Source: Halothiobacillus neapolitanus c2
Lineage (GTDB): Bacteria; Pseudomonadota; Gammaproteobacteria; Halothiobacillales; Halothiobacillaceae
NCBI RefSeq assembly: GCF_000024765.1
Contig: NC_013422.1
Location: 496,001-560,000 of the forward strand
DNA: 64,000 nucleotides
Direction: 5' to 3'
Part shown: positions 8,274 through 15,162 of the stretch, piece after piece
Numbering within the stretch: the first letter of the stretch is position 1
Layout of the letters: every line of letters begins with the position of its first letter
Notes under the pieces: generated by a model
What the model saw: only the letters and a program-made list of their open reading frames with translations
Database searches by the model: none
What the model was told of the DNA's origin: nothing
Translations under genes and position numbers: made by a program

Positions 8274-8293
8274 CCTTAATCAAACCCGCATCC
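8274..8293. repeat. Left attachment-site direct repeat (candidate att core)
   Basis: CCTTAATCAAACCCGCATCC occurs here and again, exactly, at 15143-15162. The two copies bracket the integrase, the IS, the mobilization genes and the alpA gene, and both lie at the start of terminator hairpins. The tRNA-proximal copy would be the left junction of the element. Confidence 0.72.
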
Positions 8294-8317: not shown

Positions 8318-8360
8318 CGCCTATGGCGTCCTAAAACATCTCTTTACAGCCAGTGGTTCT

Positions 8361-8434
8361 TGACGGTATTTTTGACGGTATGACGGTGTTGATACCGTCA
8401 GCCTGTGAAAAAATACCGTCAAAGGATACCGTCA
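8361..8434. repeat. Cluster of TGACGGTA sites upstream of the integrase gene
   Basis: TGACGGTA occurs at 8361 and 8373, TGACGGTG at 8381, and the inverse TACCGTCA at 8393, 8414 and 8427, the last touching the integrase start codon. The sites at 8381 and 8393 form a perfect 7-bp palindrome with a 6-nt centre. They look like arm-type integrase sites and/or an operator for the integrase promoter. Confidence 0.75.
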
Positions 8435-9717
8435 TGGCACTTACAGATACCGCTATCAAGGCCTTAAAGCCCGAATCTAAGCCGTACAAGGTTACGGATG
8501 AGAAAGGGCTTTATTTATTCGTCACACCAGCCGGGGGCAAGTTGTGGCGGCTTGATTACCGCTTTGAAGGTAAACGAAAGACGCTGGCTCTTGGTGGGTA
8601 TCCCGACGTAAACCTGAAACAGGCCAGGGTATACCGCGACGAAGCCCGCCAACTCATTGCCAACGGCACCGACCCCGCCGAACTGCGGAAGGCGGAAAAA
8701 ACCACCATAACTGAGTCAAGGCGAGAGGAGGCCGAAGCTGTAAAGATCGAAGCCATGATTCAGGCGGGCGAGGCTTTGCCCGGTTCGTTCGAGGAAATTG
8801 GTGATGAGTGGGTGAATATGTACCTTGCCGACAAATCGGAAAAATACCGGAACAAGGTTATCAACCGGCTGAAGGCGGAGGTTTACCCCTACCTTGGCCG
8901 GGCGCCTGTCGCTGATGTGACTGCACCCATGGTATTAAAGGTTTTGCAGCGGATTGAAGCACGCGGAATCATCGAAAGTGCCCACCGGGTAAAGCAAAAC
9001 ATTGGGCAAATTCTGCGTTATGCAATTGCCACAGGTCGCCGGGAACTGTTCGACGTGACAATGGCGCTGAACAAAGCCATTGCCCCCATGCCGAAAGACA
9101 AAAACCATGCGGCACCGACCGAACCCAAGGACATCGCCCCACTGCTGCGCATCATGGCCGGTTATCGTGGATCACCAATTACCCGTGCCGCGCTAACCAT
9201 TGCCCCCTGTGTGTTCGTGCGTATTGGTGAACTCAGGCACATGCAATGGGCAGATATTGATTTTGAAACGTTTGAATGGCGATACACCGCCAGCAAGACA
9301 GGGCAGGAGCATATCGTGCCTCTTGCTCGGCAAGTGGTCGCGGCCCTGATCGAGTTGCAGCCCCTCACAGGCCACTCACGCTACGTTTTCACTGGCGCAC
9401 GGAGTGACACCCGCCCCATGAGTGAAAATACCGTCAACGGGGCGCTGAAGCGCCTAGGCATCGACACACAAACCGAACTGACCGGCCACGGCTTCCGAGC
9501 AATGGCGCGCACGGTATTAGAAGAAGTCCATAACTTCAGGCCCGAAGTCATCGAGCTTCAGCTTGCCCATGCCGTCCGTGATCCACTGGGCAGGGCATAT
9601 AACCGCACCAAGCATTTAGAAACCCGCAGGAAGATGATGCAGGTGTGGGCGGATTATCTGGATGAGCTGCGTGATTCTAAGAATGTGATTCAGGGCAATT
9701 TCGGTATGGTGGGATAG
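8434..9717 (+). CDS. P4-type tyrosine integrase (DUF4102 arm-binding domain)
   Basis: A 427-aa site-specific recombinase. ATG 8434 is chosen because AAAGGA stands 7 nt before it and the protein then begins MALTDTAIKALKP, the standard N-terminus of this family; the frame is open 81 nt further upstream. The N-terminal DUF4102 domain (about 1-100, with YLFVTPAGGKLWRLDYRF and LGGYPDVNLKQAR) binds arm sites, a core-binding domain follows, and the catalytic domain shows RIGEL, HGFRA and LAHAV and the nucleophile in AYNRTKH. The gene would excise and integrate the element. A TACCGTCA site abuts its start codon, suggesting autoregulation or Xis/AlpA control. Confidence 0.95.
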   Translation: MALTDTAIKALKPESKPYKVTDEKGLYLFVTPAGGKLWRLDYRFEGKRKTLALGGYPDVNLKQARVYRDEARQLIANGTDPAELRKAEKTTITESRREEAEAVKIEAMIQAGEALPGSFEEIGDEWVNMYLADKSEKYRNKVINRLKAEVYPYLGRAPVADVTAPMVLKVLQRIEARGIIESAHRVKQNIGQILRYAIATGRRELFDVTMALNKAIAPMPKDKNHAAPTEPKDIAPLLRIMAGYRGSPITRAALTIAPCVFVRIGELRHMQWADIDFETFEWRYTASKTGQEHIVPLARQVVAALIELQPLTGHSRYVFTGARSDTRPMSENTVNGALKRLGIDTQTELTGHGFRAMARTVLEEVHNFRPEVIELQLAHAVRDPLGRAYNRTKHLETRRKMMQVWADYLDELRDSKNVIQGNFGMVG

Positions 9718-9762: not shown

Positions 9763-11039
9763 GGGCACCTCGAAAAACCTCAGTCATGCAATTTTGGGTA
9801 AAATTCTCCCATGTGATTGTTTGCGGAGCCGACTGGGATGAAAAAGCGTAGTGCCATTAAGACGGACCTGTTTGCTGATACCCATCACCGAGATAAGCTT
9901 GACACGTTGGGCGACCCCTTGGCAGAAATCGAAGCCTGCATCGACTTTGCCGCCCTGGCGGCAGAAGTCGATCGCATTGCGCCGCGGCCCGTCAGTGTTC
10001 AAGGCGGTCGTCCGCCGTACCCGACCGAGACCATGGTGCGCATTCTGGTCTTGAAACGCCTGTACAACCTGTCCGACGAACAGATGGAATACCAACTGCT
10101 TGACCGCATGAGCTACAAGCGCTTCTGTGGTCTGTCCCAGGCAACCAACATCCCTGATCGCACCACCGTGTGGACCTTCGAGAACCGGATCGGCGAAGTC
10201 GGAGCCCAGGTCATCTTTGATGGCGTCACCACACAACTCTTGAAGAAGGGCTTTATCGCCCGTGGTGGCCAGATCATTGATGCTACGCTGGTGCCAGCGC
10301 CGAAGCAGTCTTTTTCCAAGGAAGACAAGGAACAGCTCAAAGCGGATGCGATGCCGGCCGACTGGCAACCGGGCAAGCGCCGTCAAAAAGACCTGGATGC
10401 GACCTGGACCAAAAAGCATGGCAAGAGCCAGCACGGCTACAAGCTTTCAGTGAATGTTGACAAGAAGCACAAGTTCATCCGCAAAATCGTGACGGACACG
10501 GCCAGTACCCACGACAGTCAGCATTTCGATGCAGTGATCGATCCGGCCAATACGAGTCGGGATGTCTACGCTGATCGGGGTTATCCGTCCGAAGAACGCG
10601 AACAATGGCTCAAGGCAAATGGATACCGGAACCGGATTCAGCGTAAGGGCAAACGGAACAAGCCGTTATCCGAAGCTCAACAGGGACGCAACCATCGCAT
10701 CGCCAAAACACGCGCCAGGGTCGAGCATGTGTTCGGTGCCATTGAGCAGATGGGGGGCAAGCTGCTGCGCACCATTGGTCAGGCGCGGGCAAACTTTGCG
10801 ATGACAATGATGGCGGCCTGCTACAACCTGAAGCGGCTGGCGTATTTCCAGCGAGTGGGCATCACGGCTTTCTGACGCCAGAAATGGTTAGAATAGCCGA
10901 TACCCGAGGCGATTCGAGGTAAAAACGGGGCGGCATCGTCGGAAAAGCGGTGTTTTGCCTGAGAGATTGAACAGAATTCGGTCGCTGTCATCATTGCGCG
11001 CCGGGATTCATTGAAAACCTCGGGTTATTCGAGGTGCCC
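9763..11039. mobile_element. IS5-family insertion sequence, complete
   Basis: A 1277-bp unit with one transposase gene. Terminal inverted repeats are GGGCACCTCGAAAAACCTCAG at the left (9763-9783) and, read from the right end inward, GGGCACCTCGAATAACCCGAG (11039-11019), 18 of 21 matching. No convincing target duplication is visible at the flanks. It lies between the integrase and the mobilization genes and disrupts no recognisable gene. About 165 nt of non-coding sequence separate the transposase stop from the right end. Confidence 0.88.
9838..10875 (+). CDS. IS5-family DDE transposase
   Basis: A 345-aa transposase read from ATG 9838; an upstream TTG (9817) would add seven residues. The N-terminal DUF772-type region (GRPPYPTETMVRILVLKRLYNLSDEQMEYQL) and the DDE_Tnp_1 catalytic core are both present. 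The expected triad is visible as D148 (QIIDATLV), D246 (VYADRGY) and E296 (RARVEHVFG), so the enzyme looks intact. It would cut and join the IS ends described for the enclosing element. The frame is unbroken from start to stop, suggesting recent activity. Confidence 0.95.
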   Translation: MKKRSAIKTDLFADTHHRDKLDTLGDPLAEIEACIDFAALAAEVDRIAPRPVSVQGGRPPYPTETMVRILVLKRLYNLSDEQMEYQLLDRMSYKRFCGLSQATNIPDRTTVWTFENRIGEVGAQVIFDGVTTQLLKKGFIARGGQIIDATLVPAPKQSFSKEDKEQLKADAMPADWQPGKRRQKDLDATWTKKHGKSQHGYKLSVNVDKKHKFIRKIVTDTASTHDSQHFDAVIDPANTSRDVYADRGYPSEEREQWLKANGYRNRIQRKGKRNKPLSEAQQGRNHRIAKTRARVEHVFGAIEQMGGKLLRTIGQARANFAMTMMAACYNLKRLAYFQRVGITAF

Positions 11040-11496
11040 TATATTGGCCGAGAAAAAATTAACTTTCTGTCCGGTTTGAGTTGACCACTACAATTCGCCG
11101 GGTGGGATGGTGTGTTTCCGAATGGTTATATCCATGGCTGCACTTTATTGCGGTTGGTTTTGTCATTGTATTTATTCGATAATATCCAGAGTTGTCCAAT
11201 AGCATTTTTCTGATTATATCCATTTTGTTATTAGTGACTTAGCCTGTTTATCCTGATGCCAATCAAGACCAAATTCCTTGGCTTGTGCTGTTATCAGGGT
11301 GAATGCAGATGAACACAATCAGTTGGGTATTTCTTGTCGTTGTTGGTAAGGAGCAAGGTGTAATTCGGCTGGCGCCGAATTCAACCCTTCGGTCGCTAAC
11401 GCTCCCTTCGCCCCCGTTCGCTGACGCTCAGGGGGTTGCTTCGCCCCTTCCGACCACGCCCCCCGGGGCTGTCGGTTTTGGTTTTGGCGGAGGTCT
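11040..11496. other. Non-coding region between the IS and the mob genes
   Basis: The left 260 nt are AT-rich with a repeated TTATATCCAT (11126 and 11214) and no gene. The right part holds the inverted and direct repeats proposed as oriT. A 65-codon frame from 11303 crosses those repeats and is considered fortuitous. Confidence 0.5.
11362..11429. other. Candidate origin of transfer (oriT)
   Basis: A perfect 8-bp inverted repeat AATTCGGC-TGGC-GCCGAATT (11362-11381) is followed by near-identical direct repeats TCGCTAACGCTC (11393) and TCGCTGACGCTC (11418) and a run of CCCTTCGCCCCC. An inverted repeat next to a potential nick region directly upstream of mobC and the relaxase is the usual oriT arrangement. 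The nick site itself cannot be assigned. Confidence 0.4.
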
Positions 11497-11904
11497 ATGA
11501 TGATGACCATTGATCAAACCAAAACCAGTCGTCGCCCACGTCGGGGTCATGTCTTGGCTGAGTCTGACCGTCGCCGCCATAAGGTGATGACACGGGTCAA
11601 TGATGCGGAACTTGCCGAAATCGACGCCCGTCGCGGCCTATATGATCGCGGTGAGTTTTTGCGTATGTCCTTGTTCGGGATGAAACAGGCAAGACCTCGG
11701 CCTACGATTATCATCCCGGCATTGAATCAGACGGCATGGCTTGTGCTGTCCCGATCAGCTTCCAACCTCAATCAGCTCTCCCGTCATCTGAATGAGGCTG
11801 GTCTTCAAGTGGCCGACTTGCCGCAAATCATCATCATGCTGACTCAATACCGTGATGCCTTGATCGGCGCCCGGCTGCCCGAGGATCAAGACGATGAAAG
11901 CTAA
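11497..11904 (+). CDS. MobC-like relaxosome accessory protein
   Basis: A 135-aa basic protein beginning with three consecutive ATG codons behind GGAGG; the second or third ATG has the better spacing. The region RRHKVMTRVNDAELAEIDARRGLYDRGEFLRMSL resembles a ribbon-helix-helix DNA-binding fold, and LSRSASNLNQLSRHLNEAG matches the conserved NLNQ-A-xLN motif of MobC mobilization proteins. Such proteins bind oriT and help the relaxase open the strands. The gene overlaps the relaxase start by 11 nt, so both are translationally coupled. Family assignment rests on motif and context. Confidence 0.78.
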   Translation: MMMTIDQTKTSRRPRRGHVLAESDRRRHKVMTRVNDAELAEIDARRGLYDRGEFLRMSLFGMKQARPRPTIIIPALNQTAWLVLSRSASNLNQLSRHLNEAGLQVADLPQIIIMLTQYRDALIGARLPEDQDDES

Positions 11905-14317
11905 GGTCACTCGTGGCACTGGGTTTCGTGGGGTATTGGACTATGCACTGGATACCGGCAACCAGAAGGGCAAGAACCCGGAGATTGTCGGTGGCACCTT
12001 GACGTCGGGCAGCGCCAGAGCCATGTCAGACCAGTTTGCCGTCACCCGACGCCTGCGACCGGATATCAAGTCTCCGGTATGGCACGCCTCCCTGGCATTA
12101 CCGGAAGGAGAGCGGCTTTCATCCGAACGATGGTCATCTATTGCTGATGACTTCATGCAAGAGATGGGATTTCCATCAGAATCTCTATACACGGTCATTC
12201 GGCACAACGACACCAAGCACGACCACATCCACATCATCGCCAGTCGAGTCAGCCTTTCTGGCGGACTCTGGCATGGGCAATGGGAAGTATATCGAGCGAT
12301 CAGGGCCACCCAAGTTCTGGAGCGCATCCATGGTCTGACCCTGACACCTGGTTTGGGTGAACCAAAAGATGAAAAGACCCTGACCAAAGGTGAAATCGAA
12401 CAAGCACTACGCACTGGGGCAGAAGCCCCACGCCAGCGGCTTCAGCGCCTGGTCAAGGAAGCCGCCCAGGGCAAGCCAACCGCCGTCATGTTTGCCGAAC
12501 GGTTGGAACTGGCTGGAGTGGGCGTGCGTTTCCAGATACAGAAAACCGGCATTACCGGCGTGAACTATGAACTTGATGGTCTTGCGTTCAAGGGGCAATC
12601 CCTAGGCGATTCCTACAAATGGTCGAAATTCTCGAAAAAATATGGAGTCAGTTATGAGCAAGCTAGAGACAGTGAAAGCCTTGAACGATACACAACCGCA
12701 ATTGCAGATCGTACAGGCCGTGATGAACTTGGAAACGCAGGCAGAAGCCTTGAGGTCGATGCTGGGTTCGTTACCCCAAGCAGTAGCAGAGCAGACAGCC
12801 GAAGCACTGGAGCCGTTGGCGAAGCTGAGGGCGGAGGTCATTCAAGTTCTGACCGCTTACGACAAAGTGACCGCAGCACAGCGCCAGACACTGGAGGAAT
12901 TGACTCAGCAGATGAGTACCAGCGCAGCGGCAGCATTCGAGCAGAAGGCCGCGAAGCTGGACAAAACAATCTCCGACCTGTCACGGAGTCTGTCGGGGCT
13001 GAAATCGAGCATCGACACGATGGCGAAGACCGCACAGAACATCGAGACGATCCCGGATCAACTCAAGAAATCAGCGCAAGCCATGACAACCACGGCGAAC
13101 GAACTGAGCGCGGCGGCGAGATCGACACGACCGAAGATTTGGCGTCAGACACTGGGACTGATCTTAGCCAGCGCAATCGGTGGGATTCTGGTGCTCACTG
13201 GGCAAGTCGCTTTAAACAGGCTTCTGCCGCCAAGCGGCGTGCAACAGGCGGCGGACTGGGTAAACGTGCTATTAAGCAAAGCGACGCCAGAAGAACGCGC
13301 GTTACTGAGCAAGATCGTCAATCGGCCCGCGAACTAGACCCGACCGCTTACCTCGGAGCTAACGGTTACGATGTGAAACACGAAGGTCGACATCGGAGCG
13401 TCAGGCTGCATGGTGATGAGGTGTACCGAGTTACCCAGAGGCAGGATGGGCATTGGGTCTGGTGTGATCTGTACGGCAACAACGGTGGCGACAATATCGA
13501 CCTCGTGCGTGAGATCGAGCCAGGCACCGGATTCGCGGAGGCTGTTTTCCGCCTTGCTGGCGCGCCGACTGTCGGGCCAAAGCGCCGTCCGCCTGCCGAA
13601 CCCAAGCGCCCACCACCGCGACTGCCTAAGCAGGAAGTGGCAAGTCGGGCACTAGGGCGAGACTACCTGATTAATGATCGGGGGATTAGCATGGACACCA
13701 TTGAGCATGCCGAGCAATGCGGCATGCTGCGCTATGCCAATGGCGGGGTTTTGTTTGTTGGCTATGATCAGGCAAGTACGCCACAAAACATCACCCGCCG
13801 AGCGATTGAATCTGCCGACCCCATGCAGAAGCGTGATTTGCGCGGCAGTGACAAGCGATATCCGCCGATTCTGCCGGGTGATCCGTCAACAGTCTGGATT
13901 GTCGAGGGCGGCTCTGATGCGCTGGCCCTGCACGATATCGCCAAACGTCAGGGCCGGCCACAACCTACCGTCATTGTCTCAGGCGGAGCGAATGTGCGCA
14001 GCTTTTTGGAGCAGGTAGAAGTACAGGCGATCTTGAAGCAAGCGGAACGCGTGACCATTGCCGGAGAAAATGAAAGGGACGAAGCAACGCAGAAGCGAAC
14101 TGATGAGGCGCATCAGAAACAAGTGCAGCGCGTGAAAGAAATTACAGGACGTGCGGTTAAATCATGGACGCCGAAGCAGTATCTGGGTAAAGATCTTGCG
14201 GAAATGAATTACCGACAACAACCCGAACTGATGCCTGTGCAATTGATAAATCTAGACCAGCGGGCGGAAACAAAGCCATCACAAGTAATAGAAGGTGATT
14301 TGATACTGGGCCAATGA
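11894..14317 (+). CDS. MOBP-like relaxase fused to a TOPRIM domain
   Basis: An 807-aa protein in three parts. Residues about 1-250 form a relaxase domain with candidate catalytic Tyr17 (GVLDYALD) and the metal-binding motif RHNDTKHDHIHIIASRV (His104, His111, His113). Residues about 255-480 are hydrophilic, rich in Arg, Asp, Ser and Gly, and probably disordered; this is exactly where another gene is overprinted in a different frame. Residues about 485-780 contain a DUF3991-like segment (AYLGANGYDV, GHWVWCDLYGNNGGDNIDLV) and a TOPRIM domain (TVWIVEGGSDALALHDIA at about 663-680). The relaxase would nick oriT and stay linked to the transferred strand. TOPRIM may give primase-like activity to the transferred strand, which is an inference. 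Confidence 0.88.
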   Translation: MKAKVTRGTGFRGVLDYALDTGNQKGKNPEIVGGTLTSGSARAMSDQFAVTRRLRPDIKSPVWHASLALPEGERLSSERWSSIADDFMQEMGFPSESLYTVIRHNDTKHDHIHIIASRVSLSGGLWHGQWEVYRAIRATQVLERIHGLTLTPGLGEPKDEKTLTKGEIEQALRTGAEAPRQRLQRLVKEAAQGKPTAVMFAERLELAGVGVRFQIQKTGITGVNYELDGLAFKGQSLGDSYKWSKFSKKYGVSYEQARDSESLERYTTAIADRTGRDELGNAGRSLEVDAGFVTPSSSRADSRSTGAVGEAEGGGHSSSDRLRQSDRSTAPDTGGIDSADEYQRSGSIRAEGREAGQNNLRPVTESVGAEIEHRHDGEDRTEHRDDPGSTQEISASHDNHGERTERGGEIDTTEDLASDTGTDLSQRNRWDSGAHWASRFKQASAAKRRATGGGLGKRAIKQSDARRTRVTEQDRQSARELDPTAYLGANGYDVKHEGRHRSVRLHGDEVYRVTQRQDGHWVWCDLYGNNGGDNIDLVREIEPGTGFAEAVFRLAGAPTVGPKRRPPAEPKRPPPRLPKQEVASRALGRDYLINDRGISMDTIEHAEQCGMLRYANGGVLFVGYDQASTPQNITRRAIESADPMQKRDLRGSDKRYPPILPGDPSTVWIVEGGSDALALHDIAKRQGRPQPTVIVSGGANVRSFLEQVEVQAILKQAERVTIAGENERDEATQKRTDEAHQKQVQRVKEITGRAVKSWTPKQYLGKDLAEMNYRQQPELMPVQLINLDQRAETKPSQVIEGDLILGQ
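12654..13337 (+). CDS. MobB-like membrane-anchored protein overprinted within the relaxase gene
   Basis: A 227-aa frame lying wholly inside the relaxase gene in another reading frame. It is unlikely to be a shadow: GGAG stands 6 nt before ATG 12654, the frame stays open for over 680 nt, and the product has ordered features, namely a long alpha-helical, heptad-rich region (residues about 15-155 with KLDKTISDLSRSLSGLKSSI), then one clear membrane helix (about 165-187, TLGLILASAIGGILVLTGQV) and a short tail. In RSF1010-type and ColE1-type plasmids mobB is likewise embedded in mobA in another frame and encodes a membrane-associated relaxosome partner. By that analogy this protein would link the relaxosome to the coupling protein. 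Confidence 0.75.
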   Translation: MSKLETVKALNDTQPQLQIVQAVMNLETQAEALRSMLGSLPQAVAEQTAEALEPLAKLRAEVIQVLTAYDKVTAAQRQTLEELTQQMSTSAAAAFEQKAAKLDKTISDLSRSLSGLKSSIDTMAKTAQNIETIPDQLKKSAQAMTTTANELSAAARSTRPKIWRQTLGLILASAIGGILVLTGQVALNRLLPPSGVQQAADWVNVLLSKATPEERALLSKIVNRPAN

Positions 14318-14413: not shown

Positions 14414-14584
14414 TTAACGGCGATCATCCAGCCATTGCTGGACCTCTGATCTTCGCCATCCGACCGCTCGAACGCCGAGTTTCACGGGTTGCGGAAAAAT
14501 CCCAGCACTGACCCACAGATAAATGCTCGATCGGGATGCGCCGGTAATCCGGAGCACATCGTGCAGGCGTAAAATACTATCCAT
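14414..14584 (-). CDS. AlpA-family DNA-binding regulator
   Basis: A small protein of 56 aa when started at the ATG giving MDSILRLHDVLRITG; an in-frame ATG at 14614 would add ten residues. It matches the AlpA/MerR-like winged helix fold: LRLHDVLRITGASRSSIYLWVSAGIFPQPVKLG, then VGWRRSEVQQWLDDR. In P4-like and other integrative elements AlpA activates the integrase or acts as excisionase. It is convergent with the relaxase and transcribed back toward it. The TGACGGTA sites near both ends are possible targets, although nothing in the sequence shows this. Confidence 0.9.
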   Translation of the reverse strand: MDSILRLHDVLRITGASRSSIYLWVSAGIFPQPVKLGVRAVGWRRSEVQQWLDDRR

Positions 14585-14820
14585 TTCTGCCCCAGGGGCA
14601 TATTTCTGACACATGATTGAAAAGTCTCATTTTTAGGGGTTAAAAATGAGGCGGTACCGACCAGAAAACCAGACTCACGCATTTGCATAGCGAACTGCTA
14701 GCGCGTAGAATGTACCCAGAGTGTTGTTAAGACACTTCCGGTGTTGTCTGCCGGTTAAACAAGTGACATTGAGCAGCTAAACTCAAACTCTTTCCGACCG
14801 CCTCTCGCGTGTCTCGGAGC

Positions 14821-15056: not shown

Positions 15057-15142
15057 CTTCAGAACATGAACCTGGAGACCCGCATTGATGCTTTGGATGT
15101 GACGCCCGTCAGCGCGCCAATCGATGGTCACACGCGAGTGTG

Positions 15143-15162
15143 CCTTAATCAAACCCGCATCC
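15143..15162. repeat. Right attachment-site direct repeat (candidate att core)
   Basis: Exact second copy of CCTTAATCAAACCCGCATCC. It runs into the chromosomal remainder of the original tRNA-operon terminator, as expected for the right junction. Confidence 0.72.

Follow-up and report, generated by a model that had tools for sequence, protein, structure and literature searches.

The window (the whole stretch of 64,000 nucleotides of the Halothiobacillus neapolitanus c2 genome analysed here) contains, next to a tRNA cluster, an element whose features are collected in Table 1. Judged by its gene content (an integrase, flanking repeats, a relaxase and an oriT, without secretion machinery of its own), it is an integrative mobilizable element, in agreement with an earlier note on this DNA that spoke of an integrated element: the integrase, the 20-bp direct repeat and the oriT core of IncQ-3 plasmids are all present. 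Neither repA nor repC was found between the repeats, where the ORFs inspected are those for the integrase, a transposase, MobC, MobA and AlpA, and the element has a mobilization module of IncQ-3 type with no IncQ replication genes seen. The sole VirB4 and the sole VirD4 genes found in this genome lie outside the element, at 1.76-1.78 Mb, and that locus is a possible helper for it.

Table 1. Coordinates (window positions) of the integrated element and of the nested gene
Feature	Position	Strand	Basis
Left 20-bp direct repeat, candidate attL	8274..8293	+	37 bases after tRNA-Asp gene
Tyrosine integrase	8353..9717	+	PF00589, PF13356, PF22022
oriT core TTACACCTTGCT	11352..11363	-	Exact match to published IncQ-3 motif; none expected by chance
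mobC, relaxosome accessory protein, overlaps mobA start	11497..11904	+	PF05713 17.6 bits (below cut-off 23.2); position; IncQ-3 mobC homology
mobA, MOBP-type relaxase: nuclease domain, hydrophilic linker, C-terminal DUF3991/TOPRIM-like part	11894..14317	+	
Putative mobB ribosome site GGAG	12644..12647	+	Sequence; ATG 6 bases downstream
Double-coding mobA stretch, reads as hydrophilic linker (residues 254-481)	12653..13336	+	Composition, identities
Nested mobB-like gene, 227 aa	12654..13337	+	ORF, homologues, substitution phase switch, hydrophobic segment
AlpA-type regulator	14414..14614	-	PF05930, 74 bits
Right 20-bp direct repeat, candidate attR	15143..15162	+	Two near-identical copies elsewhere lose similarity nearby (15119-15128)

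Near-identical copies of the element (99.1-99.95% at the DNA level) occur in three other assemblies, which are metagenome-assembled genomes labelled Halothiobacillus and a gammaproteobacterium (L009, L010 and L011), a near-identity pointing to recent transfer. Two of these copies lose similarity at 15119-15128, which is consistent with this being the end of the element, and the third continues to 15443. A DDE transposase gene (an IS, 9817-10875) lies between the integrase and the mob module, and contigs of three other assemblies begin only beyond it (10942-10944), which looks like breakage of these assemblies by the IS. The genome also carries a second copy of the element, beside which (370.3-373.8 kb) we noticed an identical 300-bp repeat (L046:10325-10624 and 13540-13839), located within two ORFs that resemble C-terminal regions of filamentous haemagglutinins/contact-dependent toxins and that have a partly duplicated segment.

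A gene nested within the relaxase gene

The nested ORF (frame +3) is enclosed entirely by the relaxase ORF of 807 codons and is shifted from it by one base (+1), so that position 1 of its codons is position 2 of those of the relaxase; frame, coordinates and length are as the earlier note had given them, and the ribosome site that it had proposed can be recognised as a putative GGAG. A second in-frame ATG is located at 12642; the start kept in homologues is the ATG at 12654, which is preceded by a purine-rich run in most of them (weaker in homologue L002).

The nuclease domain of MobA is clear (PF03432, E 3.6e-25 in a Pfam scan), and the protein scores 55 bits against the TraI/MobA(P) model, under the cut-off of this model. 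The TOPRIM domain described previously stands as a likeness to Toprim_3 and DUF3991, and falls short as an assignment, both matches being below the Pfam cut-offs (12.9 bits against 27.2, and 18.7 against 24.5, respectively). TOPRIM domains usually have a D-x-D motif; between 13900 and 14160 the VEGG-DAL motif is kept and an E-x-E apparently (by eye) occupies the D-x-D place, which makes the activity of the domain uncertain. The stretch read in two frames is hydrophilic, as the earlier note had described it: the residues V/I/L/M/F/W/Y/C make up 13% of it, whereas they account for 29% and 27% of the two flanking parts.

The results also fit the helices and the single membrane segment attributed to the inner protein. 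Hydropathy (the only criterion used here) gives one segment, at residues 169-187, with a score of 2.11 (next best 0.67), and an AlphaFold2 model, of low confidence (mean pLDDT 48), is all-helical. Each of the ten nested proteins tested likewise has a single hydrophobic segment near its C-terminus. Scans of the inner protein against Pfam, NCBIfam and PHROG gave nothing beyond weak coiled-coil matches.

Conservation and constraint in the inner frame

One could argue that this frame is open by chance, as a by-product of the codon usage of the relaxase, and is never translated. When the synonymous codons of the window relaxase are permuted, the inner frame indeed stays open 224 times in 3000 (7.5%), and it does so more often for the relaxases of Aeromonas sobria plasmid pTM18-1 (L031) and of RSF1010 (represented by the RSF1010-like plasmid pSRC15), so that openness is weak evidence when taken alone. 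However, the ORF is kept even where permutation rarely leaves it open (19 trials in 3000 for the enterobacterial plasmid L019). In the reverse experiment, with the MobB protein fixed, the relaxase frame was open in 41 of 3000 trials; it is nonetheless open in all homologues examined.

The chance reading is further contradicted by conservation of the protein encoded in the inner frame and of its ATG. A search of plasmids returned 51 records matching the inner protein, 49 of them over at least 80% of its length; nearly all are 60-63% identical, and each lies inside an IncQ-3-like relaxase gene. The overlap is thus common to IncQ-3 plasmids and is not peculiar to the integrated element. Including the second chromosomal copy in the same genome (G000:C1:367987-368664, 57% identical), the full-length homologues are 57-63% identical and occupy the same frame inside relaxase-TOPRIM genes. 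The earlier note had proposed to look in homologous relaxases for stop codons in this frame or for a lack of constraint on it: there is no stop in any of the homologues aligned, and constraint is present. When the window is compared with L002 and L003, the inner proteins are 57% and 62% identical, against 44% and 44% for the relaxase linkers read from the same DNA; outside the overlap, the relaxases are 54-86% identical before it and 62-68% after it.

The codon-position analysis suggested in the same note pointed the same way. In the mobA flanks, substitutions concentrate at codon position 3, an excess that is usual for any gene. Within the overlap, they shift to relaxase position 1, which is the third codon position for the inner gene, and about the least variable site is then relaxase position 3 (the second position for the inner gene). 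Substitutions at relaxase positions 1/2/3 number 97/61/49 in the overlap and 158/141/338 in the flanks for the window against L003, and 99/60/57 and 99/100/275 against L002, with chi-square p values (which assume independent sites) of 2e-13 and 5e-15, respectively; two comparisons within unrelated Klebsiella-type plasmids show the same phase shift, with p values, obtained under the same assumption, of 4e-9 and 1e-5. In a sliding window, the phase switches at about 12650 and returns at about 13320, matching the borders of the inner gene. This pattern implies that the inner frame is more constrained than the relaxase frame. These comparisons show that the inner ORF is a real, conserved gene, constrained at the protein level in the inner frame, and fortuitous openness is scarcely credible.

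The inner frame might also be reached by ribosomal frameshifting from mobA, giving a relaxase-MobB fusion, since the frames overlap and the inner one is open for some codons upstream of its ATG. We consider this very improbable, because the lineages compared share an ATG at one place, mostly preceded by the purine-rich run, and no shared slippery site was noticed in an incidental (not systematic) look.

Relatives of the nested gene and a probable link to RSF1010 MobB

The same nested +1 ORF, with a conserved start, is present in five further lineages of the MOBP relaxase family to which MobA belongs. The 501-aa relaxase of A. sobria pTM18-1, which has no recognised primase, contains an inner protein that is clearly homologous to that of the window (hhalign E 1e-16). 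The ORF is also found in 4.4-4.9 kb plasmids of Citrobacter, Enterobacter, Klebsiella, Escherichia and Serratia (27 plasmid records, L019 among them), and it is present but unannotated in Marinobacter p36788 (L049:3749-4426, 225 aa) and Pseudomonas juntendi pHNGDW697-2 (L050:3764-4204, 146 aa), each time with a C-terminal membrane segment. Finally, two trfA/IncP-typed plasmids (L051 and L052) have a relaxase that ends in a RepB primase and a nested +1 MobB of 166-167 aa. The small enterobacterial plasmids are called "non-mobilizable" by MOB-suite despite having mobC, a relaxase and the nested MobB-like gene (166 aa in L019:2427-2927 and L020:3267-3767).

The ORF is absent from the related relaxases of cyanobacterial plasmids (L021, L022, L054) and of enterobacterial chromosomes (L039-L041). 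The overlap is therefore not forced by the relaxase, and the family can dispense with mobB. In searches of 369 and of 398 genomes drawn from the class and the phylum, the two copies of the H. neapolitanus genome were the only convincing matches, and a search of IMG/VR gave no relative of the inner protein. Two other matches (L017 and L018, E about 5e-4) are located in unrelated genes and were judged to be coiled-coil chance.

The earlier note had compared the arrangement with mobB inside mobA-repB of RSF1010. RSF1010 mobB overlaps mobA in a different frame (PMC2200642), and a further report describes RSF1010 MobB as having a C-terminal membrane domain and an N-terminal domain that acts on MobA, and as boosting transfer (PMC4655240). 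The analogy holds in the +1 offset (the same in RSF1010-type MobB, L025-L030), in the position at about codon 250, in the single C-terminal hydrophobic segment and, probably, in a remote homology. It has to be qualified for the part in which TOPRIM takes the place of RepB: a TOPRIM-like part (below cut-offs) is there, but it is not special to the overlap, because sister relaxases with RepB, or without a recognised primase, carry the overlap too.

The nested gene could be real and yet unrelated to RSF1010 MobB, a membrane coiled-coil protein having arisen convergently in a free linker, perhaps to do a MobB-like job. This would agree with the lack of a PF17511 match to the inner protein (none at the locus up to E 10, and none among the best 25 Pfam matches), and with a direct profile comparison in which RSF1010 MobB and the window family are related with a probability of 22%. 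Moreover, in ColE1-type plasmids both mobB and mobD lie wholly inside mobA (PMC8953408), suggesting that such overlaps may arise repeatedly. MbeB_N, the family of ColE1 MbeB (PF04837), had no match in the H. neapolitanus genome, nor in the control genomes.

We nevertheless regard convergence as unlikely, since the frame offset and the start region are the same, and the window family and MobB have in common an MSK-E-type N-terminus and an EPL motif. There is also a bridge: the nested protein of L051/L052 is a member of PF17511 (E 4e-13; hhalign E 1.6e-15 against RSF1010 MobB), and the relaxase that contains it is of the same family as MobA. When RSF1010, L051/L052 and the Citrobacter group are combined in one profile, its alignment with the window family is colinear and spans 130 columns (probability 93%, E 3e-7), with a score at z 8.3 relative to column-shuffled controls (0 of 40 shuffles as high), which control in part for the inflation that coiled-coil and membrane composition may produce. 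This inflation, together with the fact that the first dozen residues of the inner protein are partly dictated by the conserved Y-x-x-x-RD codons of the relaxase, is why we speak of a probable remote homology to RSF1010 MobB via L051/L052, and not of proof.

In a tree of the nuclease domain, lineages with and without mobB are interleaved, with supported forks, which requires at least two changes of mobB state. It is tempting to see the nested mobB as an old, frame-locked module common to MOBP and MOBQ relaxases, whose downstream part was exchanged (TOPRIM, RepB or none) and which was lost several times. We offer this tentatively, as somewhat less than an even bet; recombination could equally have carried mobB along with the nuclease domain.

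Probable function and comparison with known systems

The reading that we favour, with a probability of about 0.83, is that the ORF is a functional mobB, internally initiated in the +1 frame from the mobC-mobA message, and that its product is a helical membrane anchor that aids uptake by a helper secretion system. Translation would begin at 12654, and the protein would consist of a helical domain in the cytoplasm (about 160 residues), a net positive stretch, the membrane span (169-187) and a short 40-residue tail outside. By analogy with MobB of RSF1010/R1162, it would bind the relaxase and tether the relaxosome to the membrane, from where a helper type IV secretion system could, through its coupling protein, take up the element more efficiently. 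The relaxase would pay for this with a linker of which no more is asked than to remain open and hydrophilic. We infer in this way that the protein is expressed, enters the membrane, binds the relaxase and is needed in transfer; its most likely identity is a MobB that helps a secretion system of a helper to receive the relaxosome.

Other roles can be imagined: the product might regulate mobA/TOPRIM synthesis, serve in entry exclusion or be active on membranes, the last recalling weak PHROG "hemolysin" (holin-like) matches, which reflect the coiled coil and the membrane segment. We find such roles rather improbable, given the homology link to MobB and the fact that the inner gene is constantly accompanied by a relaxase and mobC across different plasmid backbones.

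Overlapping mobA/mobB genes are classical in IncQ-1 and ColE1-type plasmids, and this kind of arrangement was therefore already known. Three points appear to be new: a partner of MOBP-TOPRIM type, the integration of the element, and a mobB in IncQ-3 plasmids, which is missing from a survey of these plasmids that gave the published oriT motif and described the module as mobA and mobC alone (PMC7557826). We found no description of mobB in IncQ-3 relaxase-TOPRIM genes in the accessible literature (an earlier one may exist, for example in IncQ reviews). The pGNB2 record has the relaxase fusion annotated and no inner ORF. In the automatically (RefSeq-)annotated IncQ-3 records (L004, L005, L023, L024, L032, L033) the intact relaxase is missing, and hypothetical proteins are listed for the nested ORF, for a fragment of TOPRIM and for an ORF in antisense, which makes the MOBP relaxases of IncQ-3 resistance plasmids invisible to gene-name searches. 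The resistance genes borne by IncQ-3 plasmids include qnrS2 and GES. Should these plasmids possess a third mobilization gene, then mobB has been overlooked in work on their mobility and in mobA knock-outs, and any alteration in the overlapped part of mobA would affect two proteins. Sister relaxases, some with mobB and some lacking it, and with varied C-terminal modules, also offer a way of testing how a long-lived double-coding stretch originated.

Among known systems, the closest is the IncQ-3 module of pGNB2, pQ7 and pWES-1, in which mobC is followed by a relaxase-TOPRIM gene (55-57% identical to MobA over 97% of the relaxase) with a nested ORF 61-63% identical, and the oriT core is the same 12 bp; these are plasmids with repA/repC, whereas the element of the window is integrated and carries genes for an integrase and for AlpA as well as an IS. 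The L051/L052 plasmids are alike in relaxase family and nested +1 gene, and differ in the RepB C-terminus and in a shorter, PF17511-type MobB. RSF1010/R1162 (IncQ-1) is alike in that mobB begins in the +1 frame about 250 codons into the relaxase, after the nuclease domain, and encodes a coiled region followed by one membrane segment, but its relaxase is of MOBQ type with a RepB primase, and its MobB has 137 aa against 227 in the window. The ColE1-type plasmids also have accessory mob genes (mobB and mobD) within the relaxase gene, but differ in gene order and families.
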